Positions 4,039-61,095 of a stretch of 64,000 nucleotides of DNA are shown here, piece after piece. The stretch comes from Chrysoperla carnea (Eukaryota > Arthropoda > Insecta > Neuroptera > Chrysopidae): positions 8,431,140 through 8,495,139 of the forward strand of contig NC_058342.1 in the NCBI RefSeq assembly GCF_905475395.1. Direction: 5' to 3'. Position numbers and translations under genes: made by a program. Positions within the stretch are counted from its first letter, which is position 1, and each line of letters starts with the position of its first letter. The notes under the pieces were generated by a model that did not search any database, was not told where the DNA came from, and saw nothing but the letters and a program-made list of their open reading frames with translations.

Positions 4039-4492
4039 ATTTTTTTTGAATTAGGCTATTCTTTATTTAGAATCTTGAATTTTTTACCGAATATTTTTGT
4101 TGAATAATGATTTTGTTACGTTTTTTTTTTTTTTTTTTTGCAGTTTATTTATTTATTTTAATGACTTTTTAGTTTAGGGAGCGTTCAATTATTACGTAAC
4201 GTTTTTTTGCCCCCCACCCGTGCCCCATCGTAGCTCATCGTAACAATTTGGAACTGACCCCCCCCCTTTCCATAACTTGTTACATAACATTATTAACGTG
4301 TTTAATGTAAAAAAATAAATATTGTATTTTATCATTGTACAATGAAGTAATGCACAAAGAATACAAAAAATACTTTCGATTCTTTCGATACAGAAGAGTT
4401 TTTTTTATTATTATAAATATTAAGATGCAGAACAACAAAAATAAATATTTAAATAATTTACGTAAAAAAAACATCAATAAACTATATTCTCA

Positions 4493-4684
4493 TTATGAGC
4501 CAACATCTTCCGACCATGGTCCAGCTAACCACTCAGGTATGTTCTCAATTAATTTTACTCCTCTAACAGTTTTTGCGTCGGTTTCTTGAGGTACATCTTG
4601 AGTATCAACATCATCAGTTGGTAACCATTGTAAATCATCAAACTTAGTTTTTGAATCTAGTATGTATAAAATTTCATCTTCTCG
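4493..4684 (-). pseudogene. Terminal exon of an unidentified gene inside the 4177-5171 element
   Basis: On the minus strand a TTGTTAG acceptor-like site is followed by 63 uninterrupted codons ending in TAA at 4495-4493. The peptide is acidic in the middle (TDDVDTQDVPQE) and ends with LIENIPEWLAGPWSEDVGS. The start is read as a splice acceptor because there is no Met and the frame closes upstream. I do not recognise the family. It could be the last exon of the element's own lost transposase or a captured host exon. Open frame, acceptor and protein-like composition support coding origin, but no function can be assigned. Confidence 0.4.
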
Positions 4685-4868
4685 CTAACAAGCAATTAAA
4701 ATTATTTTATAACTGGATTGAAATATTATCATATATTCTACCTGATTAAGTATCAATTTTCGACTCGGTTAGTATTGTTTGGTTGTTAATAACAATAAAA
4801 TTAAATAATACAATTAAAATTTTTTTATAAAAATAAAATTAAATGATACAATTAAAAACAATAACCTT

Positions 4869-4928
4869 TTTGGGTGCACTGAATTTCTCACTTAAAAATT
4901 AACAAGTGATAAATTCAGTGCACCCAAA
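4869..4928. repeat. Perfect 18-bp arm hairpin
   Basis: TTTGGGTGCACTGAATTT at 4869-4886 is the exact reverse complement of 4911-4928. The 24-base interior contains a further CACTT/AAGTG pair, so the whole 60 bases can fold on themselves. It may be a minute nested palindromic element inside the larger TIR element. Confidence 0.85.
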
Positions 4929-5210
4929 GTAACATAGACTCGGTCCAAAAAAATGTGTTTCTGCGCCGATGCCAGTTACTTTTGTATTAATTTATATAAA
5001 TTTTAGTTTTATCGAAAAAAAAAAATACAAACCAAAAATTACTTAATAAGAAATAATTAGTTACGTAACAATATATTTCGGGCCCTCCCCAGTAAACAAA
5101 ACACATAGTAACGTTTGATTGAAATCCCCCCCCCCCCCGGTTAATATGTTACGTAATACTTGACCGTTCCCTAACATTTATATAGAATTCGTCTGTCATG
5201 GGCGACAGAC

Positions 5211-14944: not shown

Positions 14945-16159
14945 TTGAATGACTTCCATTGTCGATACAAAATGCTATATTTAGAAATTAACAGCGAGAG
15001 TAATATAAATGATATTAAAAAAAATTACACTGCAAATAAATTGCAGAATAAAATATTCAACGTTTATGGAGATGAAATTACTATTTTAAATTCTCCAAAG
15101 AAAAGCTTATGTACCAGTCAGTCGTGCATCTTAATTCGGACAAACGTAACATTATTTTTATTATTACTAAAGGCCGCATAAAACCTTCAAAGCATTTGAC
15201 ATTAGGTTTAGCACTGAAGTCATTAACGAGCAGTCAAAAAGTGTTAACTATGTTGAACAGATATGGGCATACTATCAATTACACTTTAGCTGAAGAATTA
15301 GAAACAGAAGTCACCTATTCTTCTACTCACGAAAGCAGATTAATACCGTCTGGTTTCAGTCTCACTCGTAAGTAATTTAAGTACAAATATTGCGTATGAT
15401 AATTATGAGCGTTTCGTTGAAACGTTGTCCGGAAAAGATACTTTTCACGATACAGTAGGTATCATTTATCAATTTACTCAAAATGATAATAATATTGATG
15501 GCAACAATGAGCTTTCGCCTCAATGCGAATTTGATGCAGTAGTCAATCAATCTGTTGAGGAATAAACTTCTTCGTCTAGTTCAAGCAATTACATCCAAAA
15601 AAATAGAAGAAAATTAGAAGAAATAGCTCGTGATATACAGCCATATTGCAATGAACCATCCGCGAAAACAAATTTGATTCCCTATACGGAAATAGTAAAG
15701 ATTTTCCAGAGTTGTTAGAAATAGCGATTTCGAGTTGTTTGTACTTAGTTTATATGAAATGGCAATATAATTTTTTGTTATGAATCAACCAACTATGCTA
15801 CGTCTACAAATTACTATGTCAGTAATTTATTGAATTTAAAGAATAATAATTCATCATTATTAGAAGAATTCTAGAAGGGAGCATTTGGCGTAGAAAGAAC
15901 TGACAATAATTTTTCTCAGCCACCAGTTGATTTAACTCTAGAAAAAACTATAAATGCAGATGCAGCTAACTCTTTAACAAGAAAAATGATTTTACTAATT
16001 CAATTACTGCAAGGCAACGTTGGGCATTAAGTCATTGCATACGAACGAAAATTATATCGGTAGTTCTACAATAATTGGAAATTACTGATGAAAATGATAA
16101 CATAAAAGAATTAGATTCGCATAGAGTAAATAAAGACCGCAGATGCTTAGGAACGATCA
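14945..16159 (+). pseudogene. Copy A gene, middle part, up to the piggyBac insertion
   Basis: Frames line up with copy C (30632-31440 and 34655-35911). Shared blocks are KGRIKPSKHLTLGLALKSLT, VLTMLNRYGHTINYTLAEEL, ETE and, in a shifted frame, the acidic end of that exon. At about 15710-15960 pieces corresponding to 'FELYVLSLYE', 'FFVMNQ' and 'GAFGVERT..NNFSQPPVDL' follow, then an ARQRWALSH-like block near 16010. Stops occur throughout (for example the TAA at 15563). The match breaks at 16160, where TTAA and the piggyBac start, and resumes at 18794 in the same part of the protein. Confidence 0.65.
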
Positions 16160-16163
16160 TTAA

Positions 16164-18789
16164 CCCATTCCTTACCACTGTCCTATTTATAAGACACTAT
16201 ATTAAATTTTTTTTCTCAAAACGGACCAATTATTTTAATTATTTCTATTAAAATTTATATTTATGTACTATTTTTCTATTATAATATTGGTTTATCGATG
16301 TGGAAAGTATTAACATTATTTTAATATGATTTTTTAAAACTGGTTAATTTCGTAAGGTCAAGAGGACCATTCTATTTTATATTATATATCCCAGCAAAGA
16401 AAAATTTACTTGCTCTAAAGTACATAAAATATATTCGAAGACCTTAACCAAACACGTAATGAATAAAACAAGCAACAAAATAAATTTTGGAATCATGTTA
16501 CATGCTTTCAAAATAAGCCGTACTATAAATATGACACTGGGGACTCGTCTTTACTGTTTGAAGCGAAAGGAAGTTCGAACCTGTATAATCATGCTAATTG
16601 TTTTATGCCTTGCACGTCCAGTGATTTCATTATTTGACAAGTTGATGTCGTGTACACTACATCTCATAATAAGTTGTGTTTTTAATTTCATTTTTGAGTT
16701 AAATTTTGTGAATGGAATTAGTGGTTGACGAAGGCAAGTAAAATTATTGTGATTTTGTTCGTTGATGAAATAGTAAAAGTATACGTTATTCTTTTAGATA
16801 AACGCATATCTATATATGTTTTTATTGTTTATAAATCATGGAACCATTGAAAAGAAGGTACAAAAAAGCCTTGACGGCGTCCGAAATTGCAGATTATTTA
16901 CAAGAGATCGAAGATTCAAGTAATGAGGATATAAATGATATTGATGTTGTCATATTGCCGCTAGACGAAATGGATGAAATGACAGGCAAAGAAGAATGTC
17001 CTGATGACGATATGGGAATTTTACCTGTGTCCGATGTAGCTGGTCAAGTGGAGTTTTCATGTACGGTTGACAATATTGAGGAAGGTGAACCTAATCAACG
17101 TACATCTCAGGCAAGTAAGACAGTCGCTTGGCGTAAGTGTAAGCCAGTTTATGCTGATAATCAACCAGTATCTACGACAGCTAATCAATATTTGGAAAAC
17201 ATGATAACGGAGTTGGAAGGGAAATCGGCGGTAGAAATATTTGAAAACCTGTTATGTGCCGAGATTTTAGAATATATTGTTCAAGAAACAGAAACTTATG
17301 GCAAACATTACAAAAATGACTTGAATTTTAGTCTCACCGTGAATGAGTTAAAAGTTTTCTTAGCAATCTTGTTTTTCTCTTCATATCACTACTTGCCTCA
17401 AAGTAAACTTTATTGGTGTAGAGATGATGATGTACACGTTCCATTTATTGAAAAAGCAATGTCACGTAATCGTTTTGATAAAATGAAGTCTTATTTACAT
17501 TTCAATGATAACTCAAAAATCGACAAAGCTTTCAAAATTCGCCCATTTATCGCCAAAGCTAATGAATCATTTCAAAAGTTTGGGATTTTTTAATCCAATT
17601 TAGCAGTTGATGAAATGATCGTTAAATATTTTGGTCATCACGGAATCAAACAATTTATAAAAGGAAAACCAGTGAGGTTCGGATACAAACTTTGGGCATT
17701 GTGTGGAGTCAGCCGATTCTGTTATAATTTTTCGTTATATGCAGGCAAAGAAACTCAAACCGCAGATGGTACTGGCAATGGCTTGGGTTCAAGAGTGGTA
17801 AAAAAATTGCTTGAAGTGTGTACCGATCCCTGCGCACTTGTTGGTGGATTTGAAAGCTCAAGGGTTCAAAGCTACGGGTACAGTCAGAGACAATAGGAAT
17901 AAGAATTGTCCTATCACGACAAAAAAAAAAATGAAAAAGAAAGAGAGAGGTTATTCTGATCATCGTTTTGATAAAAACAATGAAATATTATGCGTCAAAG
18001 ACAACAATGTGGTATGTATTTTGACTAATTTTGATACCGTTGAACCTTTTATGAAAACAAATAGGTACTCGAAGACAGAAAAGGCAAAAATAGCCGTGAA
18101 TCAGCCCAAACTCATTCACAATTACAATAAAAACATGGGCGGGGTGGATAAACATGATTGGTTGATTGCTAAATATTCAATACGTTTTAGAGGCAAGAAA
18201 TGGTACTGGCCTCTAGTAATTCGTATTCTAGACATGTTTCTAGTGAATTCGTGGATTATTTACAACCAGGTCAATAAATATGAGACCATTCCTCTGCTCG
18301 ATTTCAGACGAAGGGTTTGTTTTTCATGGATGGAAAAATCAGAAAATAGAACAAGTAAACCTACTTCAGGCACTTCTGAAGTTCTGTTACAGCCCGTAAG
18401 ATTTGACAATTTAGGTCACTACATGATAAAAAGGGACAAACAGAGGCGTTGCCAAGCACAAGGTTGTAAGAAAAAACCTCTTACTTTTTGTGTCAAATAT
18501 GATAAAACACTTTACAGTGATTGTTTTGTACCTTATCATACAAAATAAAGTTTAAATATTATAATTTTTCAATAGTTTTTAAATAAAGTTGATTTTCTTA
18601 TAATTGTTATCTTTAATTTTTTCTGAGCACATATCCCCAGTGTCATATTTAAAGGACGGTCTGATTCATCAAGATGGTATTTTTATATTTATTTTTTATT
18701 TCATATTCTTCTTTTTAAACATATTAAGAGCCTGACTTACAAATTTGATAAAAAAAAAACAATGATTTCGATGCTTGGGAAGTAATGGG
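16164..18789 (+). mobile_element. piggyBac transposon with TTAA target duplication
   Basis: The left end reads TTAA then CCCATTCCTTACC (from 16160). The right end reads GGAAGTAATGGG then TTAA (18790-18793), so the CCC/GGG termini and the TTAA duplication are both intact. The element interrupts copy A, whose coding match continues on both sides. The transposase inside is damaged, so this copy could move only if another copy supplied the enzyme. Confidence 0.93.
16838..18548 (+). pseudogene. piggyBac transposase, inactivated
   Basis: ATG 16838 gives an acidic N-terminus, then the conserved LTVNELKVFLAILFFSSYHY and FIEKAMSRNRFDKMKSYLHF blocks. An in-frame TAA (17591-17593) is followed in the same frame by the first catalytic block (AVDEMIVKYFGHHG, Asp at about 17609). 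After VVKKLLEVCTDP (about 17828) the frame shifts to LLVDLKAQGFKATGTVRDNR. The segment that should hold the second catalytic Asp and its DNFFTS-like block is missing, so this looks like a short deletion with frameshift. The third catalytic block (MGGVDKHD, about 18138-18161) and a C-terminal Cys-rich zinc domain (RRCQAQGCKKK, then FCV, then SDC) are intact. Normally it cuts and pastes at TTAA. Three lesions make this copy non-functional. Confidence 0.9.
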
Positions 18790-18793
18790 TTAA

Positions 18794-19858
18794 TATTATC
18801 AATAAAAATTTGAATCCATTTAGTAATCAAATTGCTGAAAATAACTTGTTTAACATTGTAACTAGACAAGCTGCATCTGATGAAACTGCTTCTTTTCTGT
18901 AAAATATTAACGATCTAGGTGAAAAGCCAAAGAGTGACTTTATTGTAGCTTGTAATAGTAATGAAGACAGATTCGAGGCAACTATTAATAAAAAAAATGC
19001 CATTAAGAACTTTGCGTCAGAATGTTTAAAAAATCACAGAAAAGTAAGGATGGTAGTAAGGAAGAATTGATTGCAATGGAGCGCGATATTTTTGGCCGCT
19101 TGTTGGCACAACACATTGGTGACATTGCTCTTGAAAAGAAAATAGATATGGCGCAACGCCTATCATATGCATTATCACCAGCTCCACCTGCTTTGGTTCA
19201 ATGTCCTGGAGAAATGCACAAAACAGATAAATCGGCATTGATAAAAATATTACGCCGCTTTACCGTTCACACACCATCTCAACATAATGTAGCTATCATT
19301 GATGGATTTTAATTTTTATATCATTTAGGCCTTTCAGTTCCTCAAACTTTCGATAAAATAGCAGAATTAATATTATGAAAAATTTTTAATACAACTGCGT
19401 CTGAAATTCACATAATTTTTTATCAGTATTCTATTCCTTCAATTAAAGATAGAGAAAAGCAAAATCCCAATGAAATTGATGTATCTTATTCAATATCAGG
19501 GCCTGCAAAGAAAAGGCCTAACAATTATTATAAAGCTTTAAACAAATATTAAATTTAAAGAAGCCTTAATTGATTTTTTAACTATTGGTCTAACGATTGT
19601 GCGGTATCATTTTTGCACAATAAAAAAGATTATATAACAAATAAAGATCAATGTTATTCCTATCAATTTATAAATAACTCTATTGTAAGAATATTGAACA
19701 ATATTTTGCATGCAATCATGAAGAGGCTGATACTCGTATTATATATCATTTGATAAAATTGGAGAATGATAGTAAAGTAATGGTCAAAGCATCGGACACT
19801 GACATACTTGTAATAATACTTGGAAATATTCATAAGTTAGCATCATTAGAAATATACA
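18794..19858 (+). pseudogene. Copy A gene, continuation after the piggyBac
   Basis: The reading picks up where copy A stopped: NLNPFSNQIAENNLFNIVTR, an ETASFL-like block with a stop, then 19022-19312 with SQKSKDGSKEELIAMERDIF and, further on, APPALVQCPGEMHKTDKSAL. Next come the LYHLGLSVPQTFDKIAELIL and NTTASEIHIIFYQYS blocks in broken frames. Towards 19680-19850 a nuclease-like part begins: an ACNHEEADT-like block (near 19710) and KASDTDILVIILGNIHK (about 19785-19840). The match with copy C stops at 19858 and resumes at 26937. Frames are interrupted repeatedly. Confidence 0.65.
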
Positions 19859-20239
19859 GGGCGTTCTGTTATTAACTGCAGATCGTTGGCCAACAGAATA
19901 AGCTCATATAGACGAACAAAAAAGCTCTTTACCCAATTTCGATTTGAGGCCTGATCCGGGAGATGTGACTATGGGAAAATAGAAAGATTTATAAATTCAC
20001 AGACCTATCAAATTAATTAAATTAGTAGGTGTCACTTTCGAATATAGAGGAGACTTTCATAAAACAATAATTGATTGTAAATTGATTTAATTGGGTAGTG
20101 AATACTAAAAATAATATTTTGTTGTTATTATTTATAAAGAAAACAATAATATAATTCCCCAATAGACAGTTACATGTGAGATTTATCAAATTATATATTA
20201 ATATAGGTACGAGCTAGGGGGGAATAAATTGTGTAATAC
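19859..20239 (+). other. Unidentified insert, left part, with coding-like remnant
   Basis: This sequence has no counterpart in copy C and so belongs to something inserted into copy A before the kinase element arrived. One frame at about 19880-20100 reads like a decayed protein: KSSLPNFDLRPDPGDVTMGK, then after a stop HRPIKLIKLVGVTFEYRG and FHKTIIDCKLI. I do not recognise the family. The right part of the same insert would be 26602-26936. Confidence 0.35.
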
Positions 20240-20371
20240 TACGGAAGCCCGGTAGTGACACGTTAATTAAGTAGCCATGGTAGTACCTCTGATTTCGCTG
20301 CGTCTGCTGACATACATAGTATGTCCGTCTTAATTTTTTAATTTTTTTTTAAAGGTGGCACTACTTGTTTA
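20240..20371. repeat. Left terminal inverted repeat of the kinase transposon
   Basis: It matches the reverse complement of 26474-26601 almost base for base, apart from one 4-base indel (TTAATTAAG against TTAAG), a few substitutions and a T-run length difference. It contains a small palindrome, ACATACATAGTATGT. The kinase ATG lies about 60 bases inside it. Confidence 0.93.
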
Positions 20372-20434
20372 TATTGTTAATTGTCAAAAATTTAAGACTC
20401 GTATTTTTTGATTATCGTATTTTTTTATTAACAA

Positions 20435-22932
20435 ATGGATCAAAACTTTGTAAAAATTCGTCATGAAAACAACGAAATTTTGTTGCCTTTATCCGAAAAT
20501 GGAAACTTGAAGTTTTCAATTTTAAAACAATATTTTCCAAATGCTGAAGGATTAACCTACATTAAAAATCAACAAACACGTGGTGTCCTGATAGAGTCTG
20601 AAGAATTAGTAATTAACCCAGCTATCAATTGTTATGATATTCACATCGGCTCAGGTAATTTTAATTATTTAACATGAATTTTTATACCAAATTCATACGA
20701 ATGCCGAAAACATCATGCTAAATTATAAATAATTATTTCTATTACAGAATATAAAAATCCTATCACAGTTAAAAAAAGGAAAATTGTTGAAGAGATGCTT
20801 GAAAAAATAACAAAGTCTACTCAAAAAAACGACAACACTACTAAACACTTAGCAGTTTCTAAAATTAAGGCAGCTGAATTTTTATTTTCATCATTGTCTA
20901 TGTTAAGATTATATCTTAACTAATACTTTCATCTACAGCCTCTAGAAAATCTTCGTGGCTCAACTTCTGGATCAGTCGCATTTAGAAGAATTAGTATTGG
21001 TTGATTGCGGAAAACTGACAATACGTATGCGCAAGTAAAAGGAACTCTTGGAGGGATCCGAGAGTTACGTCTCGAAACCAATAAAAATTACTTTGTTGAT
21101 GATATTAAGAAATTAGCAATCGAAGAATTTGCTCAGGACAATGAATTGTCTTTTGCTAATTGTGATACTTATCTCGGTCGCTTTAATGGAACTATTATAT
21201 CAAGTTTTATCAATAGTGTGGGAAAAGAATGTGATCTGTGGGAATTTTTAAAAGATCAAAAAACAAAACGTTTTTCTTTTTACCTGCTAACATCTTTAAA
21301 AAAAAATATTTCCCTTAAAGATGATTCAAATAAGTTTCCCAATCCCAAGAATTTAAATTCAGTTCTAATGACGGCACGTAATGCTACTACGACCAATATT
21401 ATGTCATCAAATGATGTTCCTTTTACTGTGCATAATTTACGAGTTAGTACATCATCAACTTACAGTTCACAAAATAAATTTGTCGGTAAGAAGAGTACAC
21501 TAGAAAAATCTGAAACAAGAACAGATGATAATATCCAAATTTCTTATGAGTGTATAAAAATTTCAAAATATACAGGTGAATATTCGAAAGTAAATTTACA
21601 GAAAGATGATCTTTATTATTCACAATTAGAAGATTTCGGACATGCAACACTCGAAGAATTTGATCCTTTAAAATCTGGCTGCAGAATTGCCGAAATTTCA
21701 GTCGATGACAGAACGTTGTTACTAATTTACCCCAATAATGAAAATATCTCCCAACGAGAGTTCACTTTCCCCGGAACGGACATTATTGATGACGAAAATA
21801 TTCATTACATTTTATATGATGTAAATGAACTCAACGGACGATACAACAATCAAAACGGTGTTGGTGTAATAACCAATTGCACTGATTCATGCAAGGCAGA
21901 GTTTACTTGGTATAAAGATGATGAAATATATGAACGGGGAATACTAAGATATTGGGTACCTATAAATGATGTCAATAGTGCTTATAAATGTATTATTAAA
22001 TGCAACTCCCTTAATTTAGAAATGGAATCAAGTATTTTCAAGTTCACCGATAATAATCAATCTGAATCGTTGAAGAGCTTACTCGGAATATTAAAGGAAA
22101 GTAAAAGTTGTTCGATTCCATCTATAAAAAAAGAATCTTTTCGTATTTATCGGGAAATCTTGGGTGCCGGTGCTCAAGGAAAGGTAAAAAAAGGTTGGTG
22201 GAATGGATCAGACATTGCAGTAAAAACAATCGTTTTGTCAGAGGCCAATGTGAAATTGGCTTGCCGAGAAGTAAAAGTGCTGGAGGACATTAGGCATCCC
22301 AATATCATTCAATTGATGGCTTTCTGTGCAGAAAAAGATAGAATACACCTTGTCATGGAATTATTCGAAAGCTGTTCTTTAGATGAAATTCTTTTCGATA
22401 GAGAAGTTAAAGAAGAAAATAAGTTAACGTTGATGAAAAAGCATAAAATATCTCAACAAATTTGTCAAGGCATCAATTATCTTCATAGCAAGGAGAATCT
22501 CATTATTCATGGAGATATAAAACCCGCCAATGTTCTTATTCACTCGAGTGGAATTGTCAAAATCTGTGACTTAGGATTAAGTAAGTTTAAAAAAATGACT
22601 TCTTCTTTAAGAACTACTGTTGGACGAACTAGATATGTCAGAGGAACGCCATTGTATATGGCTCCAGAACTATTATTACAAAATATGGAAGTAACTCCGT
22701 ATTCAGATATATGGTCGTTAGCATGTACACTGGTCGAATTGTTGAAAAGTCAATTTGGGGTGATTTGAGCGATGAAAATGATTTGAAAGCTATTCTAAGT
22801 AAGAAAAATCTACCTGCCTTGACTAGTATACCTCAAGAATTAAAATCACTTATGTTAGAGTGTTTTTCGTATGAGCCAAAAAATCGTCCTGAAGTTTTCA
22901 AAATCTTAAAGTTGTATTCAAGGTTGATTTAA
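20435..22932 (+). pseudogene. Transposon-borne kinase gene: TDP-43-N-like domain plus TKL-type Ser/Thr kinase, frameshifted
   Basis: Exon 1 (20435 to about 20650) encodes a compact domain (LPLSENGNLKFSILKQYFPN, AEGLTYIKN, TRGVLIESEELV) resembling the ubiquitin-like N-terminus of TDP-43. It ends at a donor near CTCAG|GTAATT. A second exon starts after CTATTACAG (20747) with a basic VKKRKI. The same frame runs on past a TAA (about 20921) and a TGA (21002-21004) into a 587-codon frame (21005-22768). The kinase domain occupies the last part: glycine loop GAGAQGKVKKGWW (about 22160), IAVKTI lysine (about 22218), catalytic loop HGDIKPANV (22508), DLGLS in place of DFG (22568), and GTPLYMAPE (about 22650). 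At about 22748 a small frameshift moves the C-lobe to another frame (IWGDLSDEND to NRPEVFKILK), ending at 22932. HGD and DLG suggest a TKL/IRAK-like kinase. Function in the element is unknown. Confidence 0.8.
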
Positions 22933-23077
22933 TGTGTGGATGCTAAATTTACTCGCTGGATTCGGGTATTATCAAATAAGTTATTATTGCATCGAAAAAA
23001 AAAATTTTTAATTAGATTATAGCATAAACTATGTGATTTATTTGAAGATCTCAAAGCCTTGAAACCAATCTCTGAAG
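22933..23077. other. Spacer after the kinase gene
   Basis: AT-rich 3' untranslated-like sequence between the kinase stop and the tandem array; no polyadenylation site stands out. Confidence 0.4.
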
Positions 23078-24240
23078 TTATTAATAACTAGTCAAGAATG
23101 TTGATTCTGTTAGACTACTTTTAAAAATTAATTTTAAACAACAATACTTATCAGTTAATATTAAATATTTATAAGCACGTTTGACTGTAAAACAGTTCAT
23201 TTAAATAAGTTTATCTAATTTGAACTTATGTATAATTTATTTTGAAATAATTCAACTATTTTTTATTTTTCATTCGAACACAAATAAGACTGATAAGAAT
23301 AGACTAAATGCTTTAAAAAGTTATTTTTATGTCATGTGTGTAATTAATAACTAGTCAAGAATGTTGAATCTGTTAGACTATTTTTAAAAATTAATTTTAA
23401 AGAACAATACTTATCAGTTAATATTAAATATTTATAAGCACGTTTGACTGTAAAATAGTTCATTTGAATAAGTTTATCTAATTTGAACTTATGTATAATT
23501 TATTTTGAAATATTTCAACTATTTTTCATTTTTCATTCTAATACAAATAAGACTGATAAGAATAGACTAAATGCTTTAAAAAAGTTATTTTTATGTCATG
23601 CGTGTAATTAATAACTAGTCAAGAATGTTGAATCTGTTAGACTATTTTTAAAAATTAATTTTAAAGAACAATACTTATCAGTTAATATTAAATATTTATA
23701 AGCACGTTTGACTGTAAAATAGTTCATTTGAATAAGTTTATCTAATTTGAACTTATGTATAATTTATTTTGTGTTATTTGATTATTTTTATTTTAATATG
23801 CATAATGTGTTATCATAAGTACAAATCTAATGCTTTAAAAAAAGTGTTAATAATTACGGATCTTAAAAGCTTCAAGAATCTTTGAATTTATGTATCGTTT
23901 ATTTTGAAATATTTCAACTATTTTTCATTTTTCATTCTAATACAAATAAGACTGATAAGAATAGACTAAATGCTTTAAAAAAGTTATTTTTATGTCATGT
24001 GTGTAATTAATAACTAGTCAAGAATGTTGAATCTGTTAGACTATTTTTAAAAATTAATTTTAAAGAACAATACTTATCAGTTAATATTAAATATTTATAA
24101 GCACGTTTGACTGTAAAACAGTTCATTTGAATAAGTTTATCTAATTTGAACTTATGTATGGTTTATTTGATTATTTTTATTTTTTTATTTCAATATGTAT
24201 ATGAGTGTTATCGTAAGTACAAATCTAACGCTTGAACAAA
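23078..24240. repeat. Tandem array of about 263-bp units inside the kinase transposon
   Basis: The block TAATAACTAGTCAAGAATGT recurs with CTAGTC starting at 23088, 23351, 23615 and 24014, giving periods of 263, 264 and 399. Each unit continues through AATACTTATCAGTTAATATT, AAGCACGTTTGACTGTAAAA and CAAATAAGACTGATAAGAAT. The long interval contains an extra variant segment (about 23770-23880). Units two to four are more alike than the first. No coding potential is seen. Such arrays are common in subterminal or spacer regions of transposons. Confidence 0.92.
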
Positions 24241-24909
24241 AGTGATGACAATTAGAGATTTGCTATACTCATACAGTTTTAAAATTTATTTGTTGTAATA
24301 AATCAAATTTAAAAATCACAAATATTGTCTTGTGTAATTTAACACATTTAATTGAATTAGTATTAAAAAAAATACTGAGCTATAAAAAATTCAAAAATTT
24401 TATTTTCCATCCCAGGATACTAATGAAATTTATCGAATAAGTCTTAAAGATTTGAGAGAATATAAACTGACAAGATAAGGTGCTGAAACTTCATTCTTGT
24501 CATCAAATGCGTAAAAAACATTTTTTCATCGCTGGAAATAAAAGATACTATTTCACTCCAATTTCAGTCGTAAATTTATGAATAATTAAAACTTGTTCCG
24601 GTCTCTTATCCAGTTGCCTTTGAAGTTTACTTAGACAAAATATTATTTGGTGGGGATTTAAACTTAAACAATGATCGATAAATAATCATTACAATTATAT
24701 TTTCATAATAATTAGCGTACCTCATAAATAAAAGAAAAGAAAATTTTTGAACAATAAACAAAATAAATTAGCGGTTGTAATAAATATTAAAAATTATATT
24801 TTTTCTTTATACATTATTTTAATTATTTTGTAATTAAATTGGGTAAAAAATCATTTCTTTTACAAACATAAATGACTAATGAACATTATTTTATGATTAA
24901 TCTGATGAG

Positions 24910-26001
24910 CTATGTATAAACTTTTAATAAATTTAAAATTTTTAAATAAAGCTCAATACTTTCTTCAACATTCAGAGGTACTTGTATATCAGGTATCAAT
25001 ACTTTGACTAATCGACAAAATATTTCATTGTAGAGTTTAGGCTTCAAGGTGTAGTCTTGTTTCAGAATATCAATTGCATCCTCATTGAGTGGTTTCATGT
25101 AATCTTTGGCCCCAATAGCTTCAGGAAGGTAATATAAACAATTAGGTTTTCCCGAAGCTATATGACGATTTTTTTGTTTTCTTATTCTATGTCGATTCCA
25201 CTCACGGCGAATTGTTTCCAATTCAGCTCTAATTAAGTGCCCAAAGCAAAATCGTAAACACTCGACATTTATCATAGATGAATCATTGTAAAGACCTCTT
25301 TCACGTAAGTCTTTAAATAAATTAATCCAAAAATCCAAACCATGACGCCTAAGCTGAGACCAATAACTCTCTATCCGCTGATTAGACGTGCTTTTACCTT
25401 TGATGAAGCTCTTCCAACCTGATAGACTATCATCATGATAAAATCGTAAACTTTGCTGAAGGGCTTCAACTAGACAATTTTCTGTTCCTAAATCTGACCG
25501 TATTAAAGTTGGAACTAGTTTCAATTTCTGTACTGTTGTTAAATAATAATATGCAATAATTTCCGGTTTATTGTTAGATGTTGCAACGTCCAACCATACA
25601 ATTTTTCTGGAAAATCCATCGATGCATCCGTACTTACGCCGTATCAAACGTCGACGAGATCCCTCTTCAATAGCATTTTGAACAACTAGATGCAAAATTT
25701 TATCAACTCTACTCCTTTTTACTTTTAAGCCATAAATTTGCTTTAATCGTTGCCACATTCTTTTGTAGCCAATACAAGAACCACTACTAAAAATTTCATC
25801 AATTACTGCCGTACAGATTGATTCTAGAGAATCTTCATCGATTTCCTTCCTCTTCAGTCCAAGCTTCTGAAGAATTCGAATAAGGTGTCGACGAGAAATT
25901 GAAATACTGTGATACTTGGATAGAAAATTTACTATCTCATTATATGTAAAACCTTCCTTGAAATATGTTGTTATCAATGATTCTCTAGACATAGTTTGCA
26001 A
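24910..26001 (-). CDS. IS3-like (rve) DDE integrase-type transposase, 363 residues, internally deleted
   Basis: The frame is intact from ATG (26001) to the stop at 24910. The N-terminal 115 residues contain helix-turn-helix-like segments (YNEIVNFLSKYHSISISRRH) suited to end binding. The catalytic core shows CIDGFSRKIVWLDV (residues 126-139), IRSDLGTEN with Asp170, and STSNQRIESYW with Glu211, then a helical C-terminus. In eukaryotic members I know, a block holding the first catalytic Asp lies between the RRxY motif and the CIDGFSR motif. Here RRKY (121-124) runs straight into GCIDGFSR, so that block appears deleted in frame. The protein is therefore probably unable to catalyse transposition, though it might still bind DNA. 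It sits convergent to the kinase, inside shared TIRs. I am fairly sure of the family and less sure of the Repbase clade (IS3EU-like). Confidence 0.85.
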   Translation of the reverse strand: MQTMSRESLITTYFKEGFTYNEIVNFLSKYHSISISRRHLIRILQKLGLKRKEIDEDSLESICTAVIDEIFSSGSCIGYKRMWQRLKQIYGLKVKRSRVDKILHLVVQNAIEEGSRRRLIRRKYGCIDGFSRKIVWLDVATSNNKPEIIAYYYLTTVQKLKLVPTLIRSDLGTENCLVEALQQSLRFYHDDSLSGWKSFIKGKSTSNQRIESYWSQLRRHGLDFWINLFKDLRERGLYNDSSMINVECLRFCFGHLIRAELETIRREWNRHRIRKQKNRHIASGKPNCLYYLPEAIGAKDYMKPLNEDAIDILKQDYTLKPKLYNEIFCRLVKVLIPDIQVPLNVEESIELYLKILNLLKVYT

Positions 26002-26473
26002 ATTTGTTTACAGCGGCTGCAAAAAATAAAAAGTTTAATTTTCGTTAGTAAATAAATGCTCAAAAATGTTTAATCATTCCTGGCATTGACATTAAGACAT
26101 TTATATATTTTAAAAACAATTTAATTTTAATAATGAGTTCTTGTTAAAAAATTCCTCTTAATATCAAAAAGCTTCTTTAAAAATAATTTTATTCATAGAA
26201 TAAACTTATCAATAAAATGTTAATAATTGTCAGATATCTGTCCATTTCAGTTTGATAGTAATTAAAAAAAACTTAATTAATATAATTAAATACATACCAA
26301 ATGTATATAAATGTCTAGAATTTTTTTCTAATTATTATATGTATTAAAAGAGCTTAAATACAGAGCTTCTTGTGGGGGTCGAGTGAATTTCTTATTAAAT
26401 GCAATTCCTAAGTGCAGACTAAAATTATTATTATATTTTATAAAATAGTCCTACTGTTAGAGTTCCATTGTGG
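26002..26473. other. Upstream region of the integrase gene
   Basis: AT-rich sequence between the integrase start codon and the right TIR; presumably its promoter lies here or in the TIR, but no core elements can be singled out. Confidence 0.4.
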
Positions 26474-26601
26474 AATAAACGAGTAGTGCCACCTTTAAAA
26501 AAATTAAAAAATTAAGACGGACATACTATGTATGTCAGCAGACGCAGCGAAATCAGAGGTACTACTATGTCTACTTAACGTGTCACTACCGGGCTTCCGT
26601 A
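26474..26601. repeat. Right terminal inverted repeat of the kinase transposon
   Basis: Reverse complement of 20240-20371. The outermost bases CCGGGCTTCCGTA are followed by the TAATAC duplication. Confidence 0.93.
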
Positions 26602-26936
26602 TAATACAGAACACAAAATCTTAAACACTGTATCACTTTACAACTTCAACACACAACATACATACTTTGGTTTGTCTCGGTGTATGTGTATCTCAGCATA
26701 TATTTAGCAATACGGACTGGTCCGTTTTGCTAAATATATGCTTAACGTATGTGATATTCGCACGACCATAACACTTAATTTACCATAAAACACATCCTCT
26801 CTTTAAGTAGTGTTTTATTGGTTTCATTCAAAATATTATTGCACTGTGATTCGCTAAAGATATATTAATTTATTTTGTTAATTATCTCGCAAAGTAGCTC
26901 TCCGATCCAAAAGTGGAAAATAACTTAAGTACGATA
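26602..26936. other. Unidentified insert, right part
   Basis: Together with 19859-20239 this is foreign to copy A. It contains the palindrome at 26695-26742 and CATACATAC/GTATGTG-like repeats but no open frame of interest. Confidence 0.35.
26695..26742. repeat. Palindrome with 15-bp perfect outer arms
   Basis: AGCATATATTTAGCA (26695-26709) is the exact reverse complement of 26728-26742, and the inner ACGGAC/GTCCGT pair extends the stem around a two-base centre. Confidence 0.85.
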
Positions 26937-27587
26937 GGATCGAAATCTAATGTTATCAATTTCATTAATTGCATTAAACTGGCAGGAAAATTTTGTGACC
27001 TCGTCTTTTTAAAAACTATTAAGAAATCCACAAGTTCAACAAGTATTCGCTAGTTTAAATAATATTGACGAAATTGAAAATTTAAGAAGTATGGAAATAT
27101 TGCAAGAATATACTCGTAAATTTTATATAATAAGTTGTAACAATGTAAATGATGCAAGATTATTAATTTTTCATAATCAATTTACGTCAACGTCTGTAGC
27201 AGAATATTTTATGAAAAATGTAAAAAGTTTTTATTCAAGGCAATTTCCACCATGTTGGAAGTACTGGAAAAAAAAATTCTACGAACCATTTATGTAACTT
27301 CAATGTTGCAAAATGCTACAGAAGCTAACTGCATCAATTTCTCACCAGAATAATGCGTATAGACAGCTAACGACAATAAAATTGAACCGATTTGGTTCGA
27401 AGGTGATGCAACACCTTTCTAAGTTGAAGACATTATTTTGGTAGAACTTGATGAAGTAGAGCTTAATGAAATTGATAAGGATCAATATTATGACAATGAT
27501 GATCGCAGCAAAAATAATGACGATGATCATGACAGTACTAACGATGATCATGACGATAGTGATTATGATGAGCATGATAATATTTAA
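26937..27587 (+). pseudogene. Copy A gene, 3' end: nuclease-like C-terminus and acidic tail
   Basis: The reading continues from 19858: NVINFINCIKLAGKF, then, past a gap where copy C has the LPGFHAYTGCDYT block, a 68-codon frame (27091-27297) with MEILQEYTRKFYIISCNNVN, DARLLIF, SVAEYFMKN and FPPCW. The following stretch is shifted but aligns with copy C (WQNAT, FSPEQWCW, EPLWFEGD). The gene ends with an Asp/Asn/His-rich tail (DDDHDSTNDDHDDSDYDEHD) and TAA at 27585-27587. An acidic repetitive C-terminus is also present in copy C. Deletion of the GCDYT region and several stops show it is dead. Confidence 0.6.
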
Positions 27588-30631: not shown

Positions 30632-31423
30632 ATGAGTAATATACAGACAGAAGACATCTTAGAGGGTGAATGTCACATTCCAGAGTTACTCTTTGAATTT
30701 ATTTGCAACTTAGTACAAGGTCCTGATACAAGAAGAAAAAGCTCTGATGAAGATTATGTTCGGATCAAATCATTATGTTCTGATATAATTTTTATCGTAA
30801 TCAAAGGTCGCGTCAAACCTTCCAAACATTTAACTTTAGCTTTAACACTGAAATCATTAACAAGTAGTAGGAAAGTACTGACGATGTTAAACCGATATGG
30901 TCACACAATAAGTTACACTTTGGCTGAAGAATTAGAGACGGAAGTCATTTTTTCTTCGATTCATGAAACTAATTTAATTCCATCTGGCATTAATATAGTT
31001 AATAATCTAAGTACAAATATTACTTTCGACAATTACGATCGATTCGTCGATACTTTATCGGGAAAAGATACACTGCATGACACGGTCGGGATTATTTATC
31101 AATTTGAAAAAGAGAACAATGATATTAGTAGCTCTCGATGTGAAGCAGAGAATTCACAAGACGATCAATTGGATGAAAATTTAGATTCAGGTGATAATAA
31201 TAGATTGAGTATTTCTTAGAAATGTCACAATTACTCGAAAGTTTGACAGCTCATAAAGAAGAGTCTGTCGAAAAAAAATATTATATGGACTTTAAGTATA
31301 TCTCAAATACCCTCTGCCCCAATGTGGATCGGTTTTAATAATGCTATAACAATTGATACAGTAAAAAACAAATTGTAGATTATTTGCCTCAAATAAACGC
31401 ATCCCCAACTTCATATTCCGTAG
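30632..31423 (+). pseudogene. Copy C gene, first part, up to the hAT insertion
   Basis: A 195-codon frame (30632-31219) includes ECHIPELLFEFICNLVQGPD, KGRVKPSKHLTLALTLKSLT, VLTMLNRYGHTISYTLAEEL, then DRFVDTLSGKDTLHDTVGII and an acidic end. It is the best-preserved version of the block also present in copy A at 15109-15500. A following frame (about 31300-31420) reads QIPSAPMWIGFNNAITIDTV and DYLPQINASPTSYSVV until the hAT starts at 31424. The zinc-binding N-terminus seen in copy A is missing, so the copy is 5'-truncated. In the wider family the protein is long and found in multicopy in many animals, but no function is established that I know of. Confidence 0.65.
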
Positions 31424-31590
31424 CAGTGCTGGATTACCCATTAGGCCGGACTAGGCCATGGCCTAGGGCCCCCGACAGGCAGGGGCCCCACGAAAATCTG
31501 ATATGATTATTTTTGAACAAAAATTTTCAATTTCAAGTTATTTTTTTTTTTTCAAATTTCGAAAAAAAAAATTTCTTTTCAACCAATTTA

Positions 31591-31639
31591 TTTCATGATA
31601 ATATGTATTTTGAAACTCAAAATACATATTATCATGAAA
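31591..31639. repeat. Perfect 23-bp inverted repeat with 3-base loop
   Basis: TTTCATGATAATATGTATTT then TGA (31591-31613), AAC loop, and the exact reverse complement at 31617-31639, inside the hAT. Confidence 0.95.
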
Positions 31640-32851
31640 GTGAATATTATCTTTGTCGCGCTAGACCCGACAAAGCGCTTAAAAACTCGAGCTTGTTTGT
31701 ATAAACAAACCGATTCAGTGTTTTTAACGTCCCAAATCTATTTGGTGCTTCGTCGTTTTGCAAAACACATTTGGTCGGTTTTCTCGATAAAAAAGAATGT
31801 TTTTTACAATGAGTGACAAATCGAGATGTTGTTTTATGTGAATTTGTGGTTCTGCGTGTAATTCATATTGATAAGCACGGGTTTGTTGAAAAAAGGACGG
31901 TTCTGTTTTATATTTTATCTATACACAAAAACATCGTCGATCAAATCTACTTCCTTTGTTAACCGTTTTAAGAGAAAAATGTTTTATTTTTTAATCCGAT
32001 TTTAACAACAATGCAAAATTCATTGGGTGTGTTTTTGTTTGGCTGGCAAATTTTTTGTCCGGAGAATCTGAATTCTCTGAAAAAGAATAACAACATCGGC
32101 TGTCAACAATTGGTTTACAGAACATTCCAGGTTGATTGTAACGTTTTTTTATTTTGAAAAATACCTTGTGATTATATTTGCTCACATTTTTTATTTTCTG
32201 TTTTTAAATCATTTTTTATTGATAAGCAATAATGTTGAATCAATTTTGTTGACAGCCAATGTTATTGTTTTTCTCCAAAGAAAAATTCTCCAGGCAAATA
32301 AAAACGCACATATTGTTTCTGAATATGAAGTGATCAAATTTCCAAACGTTGAAAAGTGTTGAAATTAGTTTGAATACTTTAACAATGAGGCTTATTATAA
32401 AGTTTATAATTCAATAATTGATAATAAAAAAAAAAATTTTTACAAACAACTTTCGTTCGCAAAAAAATGAAAAATATTTTGATTGCAAAAACTTACATTT
32501 TCAAATTTTTAAAACACTAATCTATGAAATTTGAAATGAAGTTCTATTCTACTTCAATAAAGCTGAAAAATTGAAAAAAATGAATTTGTGAGGTTTCGAG
32601 TACTGAAATGTTTTTTGAAATTTTTGTCTCTTTCACAAGTACATAATTTTTCCACTACAACGCGGGGTTAGATTTATGCAAATTTTATGCAAAGCTTTTA
32701 TGTTAATTTTACATAAAGCTGGCTACCAAAGTTCATTTTTAGATTCAATTTTTTGATTTTAGGTTTTTTTTGTTTAATTTTAAAAACAGAATTTAGTGTT
32801 ATCTATTAATTATGGAAATTAATATTTTTCATTGCGGTTACAGATCACATA

Positions 32852-34310
32852 ATGTCAAGATTTTATGCGAAAGAAAAGTTGCGGAGGAGAAAAAAAAGAA
32901 CTTCAGGCGTCTCTAGCGAAAATACCAAAATTGACGTCATTGTTCCGAAGTTCTACTTCACATGCTTCGACATCAGCTAGTGAACAGATCGAATCTATCA
33001 GTAATGAAGATGTAAGAATAATCAAATAAAAATAAATATAAATAATCAAATTGTTTTCTCGAATTAATAAATATTGACTGTCAGAATGTAGCTTAACTGG
33101 TTATGACGGGTCACCACAAAATTATAGCTCTTTTTATAAATTATAAATTGCAGTACTTTTTCTTTTTTAAATTCGTTTATTAAATAACAAACGAATTTAA
33201 AAAAGAAAAAGTGTGCTGTGTGCAAACTTTTCGCTTCTAAAGACAAACAAAACAAACTCACCAGTGACGGATTCAATGATTGGAAGAATGTTTCCATGTT
33301 ACACCAACACGAAAATGGACCTCTTCACAGAGAATGTATGTTAACGTACATTCAAAGGCGACAGAACTTTGAAGATGTTTCCGACAACCTTCAACTTGAG
33401 TACCAGAGAGAAAAAATCTATTGGAAAGAGGTGCTGAAACGATTGATTGCAGTTATCATAACACTGGCTGAACGAAGATTAGCTTTTCGAGGAACACACG
33501 AGCATTTTGGCGTTCCAGATAATGGCGTTCCATGTGCTTGTAGACACGAACCTGAATGTATTGCGAAGAAAATTCAAACGTTAGAATTCGTTTTCATGCT
33601 TGTTTTGTGGAGCGATATTTTAAAGAATTTTCGGGCAACGAGCAAATCATTGCAGGCAGTAGAGATTGATCTAAAAACCTGCGCATTGATGTAATCATCG
33701 TTAGGAAAATTGTTAGATGAAATGAGAGATCAATTCGAGGCGTTTGAAAACAAAGCCCGATTAATTTTAACTGAGACGGATTATGACAGCCAAACAATGG
33801 CAATGCTCCAGAAGTTCTACGAAATCAGCGAGAAAATTGTGTCAACGATTTTTTTGCAATAATGGATACGCTCAAGGTCGAAATGACCAGCCGAAGTCAA
33901 GTTTACTTAGAGGTTTCGGAGAGATTTTCATTTTTGGCTGACTTTGATTTGACAGAAGACGACTACCGTGAAAAAATTGCCGGTTTGGTTGATTTTTACT
34001 TTGACGATTTAGAAGAGTTTTATCCTGAACTCAAACAGTTTCACGCTTTTATCAAATCAAAATTTCCAGCAAACCTAAGTTCACTCACTCTGACCTCTAC
34101 GAAAGTTTGATACGAGATAATCTTACATCTGTTTTTCCAAACGTTGAAATTGCTCTTCGCATTTTTTTAACTCTTATGATTACGAATTGTTCAACAGAGC
34201 GCTCTTTTTCGAAATTGAAACGCATAAAAAATGCGCAAAGAAGTGTTATGGGTCAAGGACGATTAGACATGCTAAGTTTGATGTCCATTGAATCGGACAT
34301 TCTTCGTTAA
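32852..34310 (+). pseudogene. hAT transposase, decayed and internally deleted
   Basis: From ATG 32852 the frames give a basic Lys-rich start, then ELQASLAKIPKLTSLFRSST and a Ser-rich stretch ending in ISNEDVRIIK. After an AT-rich gap, 33218-33694 encodes a zinc-finger/DUF4371-like part (CKLFASKDKQNKLTSDGFND, HENGPLHRECM, LAERRLAFRGTHE). About 33545 onward the expected catalytic core is cut short by deletion. Frames at 33862-34110 and 34107-34310 give a helical region and the C-terminal dimerisation block NCSTERSFSKLKRIKNAQRS, VMGQGRL, LSLMSIE. In the family this protein excises and inserts the element. Missing core sequence plus frameshifts make this copy inactive. Confidence 0.85.
33155..33212. 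repeat. Perfect 24-bp inverted repeat with 10-base loop
   Basis: ACTTTTTCTTTTTTAAATTC then GTTT (33155-33178) is the exact reverse complement of 33189-33212. The right arm leads directly into the zinc-finger frame of the hAT transposase. Confidence 0.95.
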
Positions 34311-34654
34311 ATTGATTTTGAAGACATCATCGATGAATTTAGTGAATTGAAATGTCGAAAAAAAGTTTTTTAAAGACCAGCGTCGTTTTTATTTCCAAAG
34401 AGGTGTCCAAAGATTGTTTCACCATTAATTATAATTTATTGTTAATTATTTGAAATCAGAAAATATATAATTTAACAGAAAAAATTATTTTGTTCATTTT
34501 ATTTCGTTTATAACCTTGGAATGATATGAATAGGCTGTACGAATGCTATGAATACACAAATAACGATTAATTTTACAATTATTCAAAAAAGGGGGTCCCC
34601 ATAATTTTATTGGCCTAGGGCTCCCGATGGGCTTAATCCGGCACTGTTCCGTAG

Positions 34655-37378
34655 TGCATGAAACCATGTTACGAGCCCTGAAAATCGCTCAGGAATGTAA
34701 CCAACAACATATGATTGTACATATGATCTAGCTATTGCCAGGATGGCCATGCAAATTCAAGTTACAGAGAAGCCGAAATTCGATCCATTATTTATTAATC
34801 TTAGTGCCTTCCATATTGAAATGGTCTTTTTTAAGGCTTTAAGTAAATATATAGACGCATCGGGAATTGTCGATATACTTGTCCAGTCAGAATGTTTGGC
34901 GCAAGGCTCCACTAACGGCTTCATTGACGGAAAACATTTTAACCGATGTAAACGTTTACACCATATATTTTCTGCAGCACTCCAAACTTTACATATAATT
35001 GAATTATTTAATGAATATGAAATTGATAATGATATTCTGTTGAATGATTTAAAAACAATTTCCAATAACCCTGTTGCTAATAACGAGTCACTAATTATCA
35101 ACCCGCCATTGGATGCAGTGGTAAATGATTATTTAAATTATGTCCAACTTACGTAAATTGGTGTGTATGGTAAAACTTCTCAGTTTTACATGCAATATAT
35201 TTATTTTGTCAACTTATTTTTCTCACTTTCTCGTAGCATTAGAAATAGTAATTTTGAATTATATGTACTTAGCTTATATGAAATATCGAATCTCTTCTTC
35301 GTAATGAACCAATCTAATTATGCCAGATGGACTATTTACTATGTAACTAATTTATTATATTTGAAAAAAAATAATTCACCGCTATTTGAAGAATTTAAAA
35401 ATGGAGCTTTTGGAGTTAAAAGGACCAATAATAACTTTTCACGTGCCCCGGTGGACTTGACTTTAGAACAGACAATTAATGCAGATGCAGCTAATTGTTT
35501 AACAGTGCTTTCACTAACTCCATTACGGCAAGGCAACGTTGGGCCTTGAGCCATAGCATACGAGCAAAAATTGTCACCGTAGTTTTACAAGAGTTAGGAT
35601 TGATTGATGAAAGCGATACAACAAAAGAACTAGACTCAGACAGAATTTTGAAAGATCAAAAGTGTATAAAATCGATTATTGATATAATAACTAGCAATAT
35701 TAATCCATTTAATAAGCAAATAGATGAGAGTAATTTGTATAATATTGTGAGTGGACGAGCAGCAACTGAAGAAACAGCTGAATTCCTCCTTAATGTCAAT
35801 ACTTTAGGTGAGATTCAGAAAAAAGAGTTCATCGAAGGGTGTAATAAAAACTCCGGTAGATTTGAGTCAGCAATTAAAAAGAATAAAATTCATAATTTTG
35901 CCGCTGAATGAATAAAAAAACCCAAAAATAGTAAAGACGGGAAAAAACAAGTGTTGATAGCTATGGAACGTGATATTTTTGGTCGCCTGTTAGCTATTGC
36001 ATTAGAAAAAAAATTGATATGGCACTTTGTCTATCGTACCCTCTGTGTCCAGCTCCGCCGTCCCTTGCTCAATGTACGGGTGATATGCACAAAACAGATA
36101 AATCAGCATTAGCAAAATTTTTAAGTTCATCAATAAAAAATTTACCACCAACTCGAGTATATGTCGAAATAATTGACGGATATTATTATTTATACCATTT
36201 AGGTCCTTCTGTTCCCCAAACTTTTGATAAAATCGCTCATATGATATTATCTAAACTATGCAACACAACTGCAAGTGAAATTCACCTAATATTCGATCAA
36301 TATTTTCCAAATTCAATAAAAAATTTAGAAAGACGTAGCCGTAATGAAATTAATACACCATATATCATAGTATAACCGTCACAGAAAAGACCTAATGATT
36401 TTTACAAAGCTTTAAAAAATACTAAATTCAAAGAGGCTCTAGTAACTTTTCTGACAGACTATTATTGTAATAATTTTGTAGCACCATTTTTGCGTGACAA
36501 AAAACTGTATATTACTCATAAGGACGAATGTTTTTCTTATCAAGTACAAAATGCTGCTATTGTAAAAACTGTTGAAGCAGATTTTGCATGTAGCCACGAG
36601 GAAGCAGACACACAAATTGTGTACCATTTAAATAAACTGGCAAGAAATCAAACGGTCCTGATAAAAGCCTCAGATACAGATGTGCTACTAATTATTTTAG
36701 GAAATATTCATAAGCTATCAATGTTACAAATATATTGTAGTTCAATAGGAGTAAAATAGAATGTTATTAATTTCATAAATTGCACTGAACTTGCTGCAAA
36801 ACTTGGTGAACTTGTTTGTCGCTCATTGCCAGGTTTTCATGCCTACACAGGATGTGATTACACGGCAAGTTTTTACATAAAAGGCAAAGTCAAACCTTTT
36901 CAAGAATTACTAAAAACCCCCAAGTTCAGCAAGAGTTTGCAAATTTAAGTGAAATTGATGAAATAAATAACTTAAACAGCATGGCTATATTACAAGAATA
37001 TACATGTAGATTATATGGAGTGTATTGTAATAATGTTAACGATGCGCGATTAATATTATTCCAAAATCAATTTACATATACATCTGTTGCGGAATATTTT
37101 ATGAAAAGCCTCAAAAAATTTGATTCCTCTCTTCTTCCACCATGTTGGAAGTCACTTCAGCAAAAAATTTTAAGATCTACTTATGTTACTTCCATGTGGC
37201 AGAATGCAACTGAAAGAAATTGTATTAGGTTTTCACCGGAACAATGGTGTTGGATCATCAATGAAAATGAAGTAGAACCACTTTGGTTCGAAGGTGATCC
37301 AACGCCTCTATTGGTTGAAGATATTGTTTCTGTGGAACTTTATGAAGTTTGCAAATAACGACGATGATATCGAAATTG
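34655..37378 (+). pseudogene. Copy C gene, main part: conserved core and FEN/PIN-like nuclease signature
   Basis: After the hAT the frames run VHETMLRALKIAQECNQQHM; LSAFHIEMVFFKALSKYIDA to GFIDGKHFNRCKRLH (34743-35156); FELYVLSLYEISNLFFVMNQ and YARWTIYYVTNLLYLKKNN, then NFSRAPVDLTLEQTINADAA (35163-35549); ARQRWALSHSIRAKIVTVVL (35495-35911); and CTGDMHKTDKSALAKFLSSS (36019-36375). Next come HEEADTQIVYHLNKLARN and KASDTDVLLIILGNIHK (36490-36759), LPGFHAYTGCDYTASFYIKG (about 36827-36886), and the C-terminus at 36981-37358 (CNNVNDARLILFQNQFTYTS, LPPCWKSLQQKILRSTYVTS). Acidic HEEADT, SDTDVL and GCDY in this order resemble the metal-binding motifs of XPG/FEN-type PIN nucleases. That is inference. 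Stops and shifts between frames show decay. The EnSpm-like element cuts it at 37378. Confidence 0.65.
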
Positions 37379-60685: not shown

Positions 60686-61095
60686 AACTAAATTACCATA
60701 AAACCAACGGTACCCTCCCGTATATTAAGATCGATAAGTTACGATTCTTAATCGATACTGTAGCTGACAACAATTTTCTCGACCCAAAACATCTTATTTA
60801 TTTCCCAACAGCCATTCCAACAAATACTATCGTAAAAACTGCATTGAAAGAACACAAAATAACGCAGAAAGTCAGAGTTGATTATTTAGCAAATTTAAAT
60901 AATGACAATCCCATATTTTTCCTCATATTTAAATTCCATCATTTCTTTGACGGAATAATCGGTAATGAAACTTTGAAAAAACTCAAAGCAAATATTGATT
61001 ATGATTCAAACACTATAAATCTAAACGGAATCATAAACAAGTTGCATTTAAAACCCCTTGATAGACCCCAAATTCATGCTATTAACGGAAACGAA
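60640..61095 (+). pseudogene. Errantivirus-like protease, start of pol, cut by copia
   Basis: The pol frame is -1 relative to gag and overlaps its end, the usual arrangement for ribosomal frameshifting in these elements. It reads YHKTNGTLPYIKIDKLRF, then LIDTVADNNF where LIDTGA is expected at the aspartic protease active site, and later FFDGIIGNETLKKL and PLDRPQIHAING. The frame stops at 61101 only because copia starts at 61096; reverse transcriptase and the rest would lie beyond the window. The Gly to Val change in the catalytic triplet should abolish protease activity. Confidence 0.7.

Follow-up and report, generated by a model that had tools for sequence, protein, structure and literature searches.

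We analyzed a 64,000-nucleotide stretch of the Chrysoperla carnea genome (contig NC_058342.1, forward-strand positions 8,431,140 to 8,495,139), hereafter the window, which contains at positions 20240–26601 a DNA transposon with two genes reading towards each other, a transposase gene and a protein kinase gene. Judged by its ends, its 6-bp target site duplication (TSD) and its integrase core, it is a terminal inverted repeat (TIR) transposon of the IS3EU type. Five copies, all with perfect 6-bp TSD flanks, were found in the genome. Only the window copy keeps the kinase gene, which opens with an exon encoding a TDP-43_N domain, and in the window copy both genes are damaged. The left ends of three of the four shorter copies run into the start of the kinase gene, and we consider it quite likely that the kinase is an original and regular gene of this family.

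Copies of the element and loss of the kinase gene

The 559-Mb genome (337 contigs) was searched with an end pattern allowing up to two mismatches and by DNA similarity; the counts are lower bounds for repeats. The pattern identified ten termini, and the DNA search gave the same five pairs: the window copy (6362 bp) and the shorter copies L009 (3293 bp), L010 (2700 bp), L011 (2543 bp) and L012 (1445 bp). In three of these, the left end is joined to the right part of the element, from element position 284 to 4082 in L009, 274 to 4001 in L010 and 206 to 4073 in L011. The kinase ATG is at element position 196, and these left ends therefore extend into the kinase gene by approximately 89, 79 and 11 nt, respectively. 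The points at which they jump into the right part differ in all three, landing at the right edge of a tandem array that lies between the two genes. Because their left ends enter the kinase gene and jump at different points, L009, L010 and L011 appear to be decayed descendants of kinase-bearing elements, and since separate deletions seem to have removed the kinase from the shorter copies, its pairing with the transposase appears to be original to the family. L012 (2006–3450) is rearranged, with two right-arm-type ends, an inverted inner piece and one join at 4038, and for that reason is silent on the presence of the kinase.

All four shorter copies break within the same 82 bp at the right edge of the array. 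The junctions show 4-nt overlaps in L010 and L011 and two unassigned bases in L009. The four copies that can be aligned, all but L012, diverge pairwise by 0.51 to 0.76%, with 24 private substitutions and one shared. This is the pattern of a star rather than of a kinase-less subclade, and no kinase-less lineage was seen to have spread. Most simply, a number of full-length copies would have inserted within a short period and then lost the kinase where they were, perhaps when gap repair failed at the array and was left incomplete. The right part of L009 additionally contains an insert of ~650 bp (~4438–5088) flanked by a repeat of ~8 bp of the element, as in hAT-type insertions.

The proposal in the original prediction that the kinase is a regular accessory gene is supported by the kinase-gene left ends in three of the four short copies and limited by the absence of the gene from four of the five TIR-bounded copies. 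Formally, kinase-less copies with the same TIRs count against it, but three of those four hold a remnant of the kinase gene.

Structure of the element and its genes

IS3EU elements are marked by TA..TA termini and usually 6-bp TSDs, and Ginger1 differs from them by an HHCC zinc finger ahead of the integrase core, according to the available part of PMC10045372; rust-fungus IS3EU ends have the form TAYGG..CCRTA (PMC12730594, available part). The ends of all five copies are TACGG..CCGTA. An 18-base end motif (≤3 mismatches) occurs twice in the window, both times at the element ends, with 0.01 occurrences in shuffled sequence, and a 22-base end motif (≤2 mismatches) occurs ten times in the whole genome and not once when the pattern is read backwards. 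The integrase core is IS3-like, of the DDE type, and matches rva_4 (PF24764). No zinc-finger family was found among the Pfam matches for the element up to E 10; Ginger1/2 and Polinton were ruled out by the lack of a matched HHCC finger, the TA..TA ends and the rva_4 core.

The left and right TIRs differ by three substitutions and two gaps. The substitutions also occur in L009, L010 and L011 and must predate these insertions, and TIR divergence was dropped as an insertion clock on account of this recurrence. A 4-bp TIR gap is private to the left arm of the window copy. The boundaries given by the original prediction were exact to the base, and its near-identical TIRs of about 130 bp, its TAATAC duplication on both sides and its pair of genes, a minus-strand integrase and a plus-strand kinase, were all recovered; it missed the TDP-43_N exon and the defects in both genes.

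A search with the transposase gave 143 homologs at E 0.001. The nearest named relatives are in Cotesia (Braconidae). C. congregata P0001 agrees with the window transposase at 304 of 329 aligned residues, and horizontal transfer could be the cause of this 92% identity. In viral contigs (IMG/VR), 24 pattern matches were obtained, none of which was confirmed as a transposase relative. Aligned with 16 chosen relatives, the window transposase lacks 25 residues that include the first catalytic Asp. This segment is kept in 15 of the 16, the annotated P0003 lacking a larger stretch, and the corresponding 75 bp are kept in three of the four sister copies (L009, L010 and L011), whose frames break elsewhere. 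On these alignments, the incomplete DDE triad is damage to the window copy and not a trait of the family.

The kinase gene was modelled with three exons, starting 63 bp past the inner end of the left TIR; the intron after exon 2 opens with GC, making its donor less certain. The TDP-43_N domain of exon 1 scores 34.1 bits against a curated cut-off of 27.1, which is also exceeded by the Cotesia relatives P0121, P0123 and P0125 described below, and exon 1 weakly matches TDP-43 chains in the PDB (best E 0.072). The catalytic motifs of a conventional protein kinase are read both in P0121 and in the window frame, as GAGAQG (Gly loop), AVK (the VAVK Lys), HGDIKPAN (catalytic-loop Asp), DLG (the DxG Asp) and APE; the last three had been picked out by the original prediction. 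Past ~22742, the remaining kinase sequence runs in another frame. With the 25-residue loss in one gene and the TGA and frameshift in the other, no complete transposase and no complete kinase can be made from the window copy.

When the kinase domain is compared by sequence with the PDB, CTR1 ranks first (1.1e-30), with NEK7 close behind (2.2e-29). The tyrosine kinase-like (TKL) type proposed for it is plausible from the CTR1 match, but NEK7 is near and a tree of partial exons (see below) does not settle the assignment. Two AlphaFold models are poor (mean predicted local distance difference test scores of 36.6 and 34.8), making the ubiquitin-like and immunoglobulin-like assignments between the TDP-43_N and kinase domains tentative. 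Foldseek against the PDB gave no match at E ≤0.001, the first hit being RIPK1 (4.3e-3, not significant), and the best scores for residues 392–479 include beta-sandwiches that are not immunoglobulins. The coordinates of all features are given in Table 1.

Table 1. Features of the IS3EU-type element and its insertion site, in window positions
Feature	Position	Strand	Basis or remark
Target site duplication, left	20234..20239	.	TAATAC
Whole IS3EU-type element	20240..26601	.	6362 bp; paired TIRs and TSD; one of five genome copies found
Left TIR	20240..20372	+	133 bp; begins TACGGAAGCCCGG
Kinase gene exon 1, TDP-43_N domain	20435..20654	+	PF18694, 2.6e-8; gene model; tblastn of P0121 from residue 1
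Kinase gene exon 2 (linker)	20748..20869	+	GT..AG / GC..AG model and alignment to P0121
Kinase gene exon 3, broken by stop and frameshift	20939..22932	+	
Region modelled as ubiquitin-like / RA-like, tentative	20975..21304	+	P0121 residues 121–230
In-frame TGA in exon 3	21002..21004	+	Trp at this place in Cotesia glomerata P0121
Region modelled as beta-sandwich, immunoglobulin-like among others, tentative	21791..22054	+	P0121 residues 392–479
Protein kinase domain, frame lost near 22742	22133..22932	+	PF00069, 2e-46 (N part); PF07714, 4e-5 (C part)
Tandem array, ~263-bp units, between the two genes	22955..24296	.	families D1 and D2; core found by TRF
Breakpoint zone common to all four shorter copies found	24240..24321	.	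right-hand matches start at element positions 4001, 4038, 4073 and 4082
IS3-like transposase, 363 aa, first catalytic Asp segment absent	24910..26001	-	PF24764, 8.7e-27
Junction of 75-bp deletion in transposase	25629..25630	-	75 bp present in L009, L010 and L011
Right TIR	26475..26601	-	127 bp
Target site duplication, right	26602..26607	.	TAATAC

The tandem array is 1.3 kb long, with units 92 to 96% alike (BLAST). Just to the right of the element, a 48-bp near-perfect palindrome is located at 26695–26742. Elsewhere in the window there are a piggyBac-type transposase in two pieces (16838–18545, PF13843), a pogo/Tigger-type DDE transposase with a long open reading frame (ORF) of 617 aa (54601–56451, PF03184) and a retrotransposon gag-type ORF (59371–61101, PF03732) followed by further ORFs. 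A multi-ORF block is present as a diverged direct duplication (68 to 75% identity; 15151–19856 and 27005–27457 versus 30785–37348), and both the element and the piggyBac-type transposase sit inside one copy of it. No clean empty site was found in the paralogous block at 36–37 kb, where nothing corresponds to the ~700 bp that surround the insertion site.

Origin and possible role of the kinase

Relatives of the kinase gene product were found in Cotesia glomerata. P0121 is a 772-aa protein with no stops that combines TDP-43_N and kinase domains, and two further proteins of the family, P0123 and P0124, are roughly 40 to 50% identical to it; as annotated, P0123 is without the kinase domain and P0124 without TDP-43_N. 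The three proteins are recorded on contigs of three different lengths and may derive from more than one annotation of C. glomerata. In C. congregata, P0125 is a partial N-terminus of the kinase gene, identical to the window at 170 of 204 residues. Between the window and P0121, the kinase and ubiquitin-like regions are identical at 282 of 311 residues and the linkers at 106 of 147 (Fisher 7e-7), and domains conserved above their linkers are the pattern that a functional protein would show.

A search of the genome with P0121, in which 58 of 136 candidates were scored, gave 58 matches, three of them the window copy itself. The other 55 are at most 43% identical (in short pieces), with the best-scoring at 30 to 38%, and all fall within query residues 476–766, in or just before the kinase domain. 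No nearly identical host source kinase was found among the scored candidates, and one-off capture from such a gene, which the original prediction had put forward as the case against itself, is not borne out. For a kinase tree, 27 loci were taken, of which 22 gave segments longer than 150 residues and five were dropped; among these 22 host segments, which are partial exons, the three element-type kinases occupy a long, isolated branch with no clear neighbor. A TDP-43_N search of the genome matched four other exons at 41 to 100 bits, compared with 33 bits for the element, and these four we take to be host TDP-43 genes. Neither the P0121 search, the kinase tree nor the TDP-43_N search of the genome gave any sign of recent capture of either domain from the host. 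Two protein searches with the pre-kinase region gave 4 and 5 hits, all of them to Cotesia proteins or the window; one of the two scored the best 7988 candidates, and a word-based search of this kind may miss distant relatives.

We lean, if only slightly, towards the following explanation as a whole. The element would be a recently active cut-and-paste transposon whose full-length form has two convergent genes, each starting beside one TIR. Because two inward-reading genes adjoin matched TIRs, co-expression is suggested: the TIRs would drive both genes, and transposase and kinase would be made together. TDP-43_N self-assembles in TDP-43, and by analogy it would cluster the kinase, which would then be switched on by proximity. 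The clustered kinase would phosphorylate either the transposase itself or a protein of host repair or silencing, with the result that excised copies would be restored or silencing would be escaped. Kinase-less copies would arise from incomplete gap repair, when synthesis from the transposase side halts at the array and its product is fused to a short left end. The transposase and the host's repair or silencing machinery would be the likeliest targets, but naming a specific one is speculative, and we hold it to be doubtful.

Two observations weigh against a working role for the kinase: it is missing from four of the five copies, three of which keep most of the transposase, and the sole remaining kinase, that of the window, is broken. 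These are what would be expected if the kinase were an inert passenger, captured once by this lineage, of no use to it and now being lost, which is the best of the alternatives even if an unlikely one; the kinase may be dispensable to the element. However, the C. glomerata relatives, at 40 to 50% identity, retain parts of the architecture, and the kinase motifs where the domain is present, and the kinase and ubiquitin-like regions are far more conserved than the linkers. The window transposase is broken too, so decay is not specific to the kinase, and the short copies, with their private breakpoints, show no sign of having multiplied.

The kinase might instead act on host signaling, for example in immunity or apoptosis, as selfish cargo that aids the host cell or transmission of the element. 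A clustering domain, possible ubiquitin-like and immunoglobulin-like parts and a kinase together resemble a signaling adaptor kinase, and RIPK1 is the first, non-significant Foldseek hit; the predicted structure is poor, and we regard such a role as improbable. Slightly less probable again is that TDP-43_N kinases are a host (braconid) gene family of which the transposon captured one member. P0121, P0123 and P0124 are indeed annotated C. glomerata proteins known without genomic context, and the incomplete domain sets of P0123 and P0124 would suit a host family. Such a family should, however, persist in the host genome, where another member did not turn up: apart from the window copy, P0121 matches only generic kinases among the candidates scored, and TDP-43_N only the four exon pieces. 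A nested insertion, chimera or assembly artifact, with the kinase foreign to the element, would fit a kinase present in one copy only and broken there, but is strongly disfavored and very improbable. The sequence immediately left of the kinase gene and the opening bases of the gene recur in three copies located on two other contigs, which makes the kinase start part of the element, and C. congregata has both a close transposase (P0001) and the kinase-gene N-terminus (P0125).

If the kinase does act in transposition, this would be a mobile element that brings its own signaling enzyme, one that includes a domain, TDP-43_N, best known from a neurodegeneration protein, and it would provide a system for studying phosphorylation control of cut-and-paste transposition, gap repair and escape from silencing. 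Deletion at the edge of a tandem array is also a suggested route by which an accessory gene is lost from most copies, and such genes may be missed in repeat libraries.

A second IS3EU-type family and related systems

Besides the first family, an rva_4 search of the genome gave one element on contig C3 and a weak match on contig C1 (29.5 bits). The C3 element (259486–267308, L054/L055) has TATGG..CCATA ends whose first 25 bases are identical, the TSD TCATAA and a plus-strand rva_4 gene (3.5e-64). On its minus strand, an 82-aa C-terminal fragment matches HECT (1.5e-6, above the cut-off), and a 134-aa fragment upstream of it, read by eye as a HECT N-lobe, gave no Pfam match. With 40 of 212 candidates scored, the left end of the C3 element matched the genome 208 times, often in subterminal repeats, and the family therefore probably has many non-autonomous relatives.

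One possible, though rather unlikely, generalization is that IS3EU elements have a standing second-gene slot, opposite to the transposase, for a protein-modifying enzyme, and that it was filled independently by an alpha-kinase in fungi, by the TDP-43_N kinase in the first insect family and by a HECT-type ubiquitin ligase in the second. If so, the superfamily would depend on post-translational control of the transpososome or the host, and we know of no eukaryotic cut-and-paste element with such a dependence. An enzyme gene opposite the transposase recurs in fungal and insect IS3EU elements, which makes the question testable across species.

The literature searched, in which most subscription papers and Repbase Reports were not covered, so that absences from it are weak, contained no paper pairing IS3EU with HECT and, in the text available, no animal IS3EU element carrying a conventional kinase joined to TDP-43_N. 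The element in the window shares with the IS3EU superfamily the TA..TA termini, the usual 6-bp TSDs and an IS3-like integrase, but a conventional protein kinase or TDP-43_N is named in none of the IS3EU descriptions in their accessible parts (PMC10045372 for the termini and TSDs). Styx of Zymoseptoria also has an IS3EU-type transposase, and its ancestor was drawn by its authors as a two-protein IS3EU element; it differs in being fungal, with four coding sequences and no kinase named inside it in the portion of the paper available (PMC10853768).

TDP-43 and the element protein are alike in that window exon 1 passes the Pfam cut-off for TDP-43_N, but no RNA-recognition domain is matched by Pfam in P0121, which has a kinase instead. 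TKL/RAF-like kinases such as Arabidopsis CTR1 include the best PDB sequence match, whereas the element kinase reads HGD and DLG where those kinases have HRD and DFG, and lies on its long isolated branch. As a family, alpha-kinases show no clear similarity in sequence to conventional kinases. The fungal TET+ IS3EU elements combine a transposase and an alpha-kinase gene in opposite orientations within one element, the only kinase inside an IS3EU element found in the literature searched, and the view in the original prediction that no such pairing had been described was too strong (PMC12730594, available part). The fungal elements have a TET/JBP gene between the two, whereas in the window element the kinase is conventional and includes TDP-43_N, and the genes are separated by a tandem array. 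The superfamily itself is known, and a kinase opposite an IS3EU transposase is known in the form of the fungal alpha-kinase; the TDP-43_N kinase architecture is new to the literature searched.

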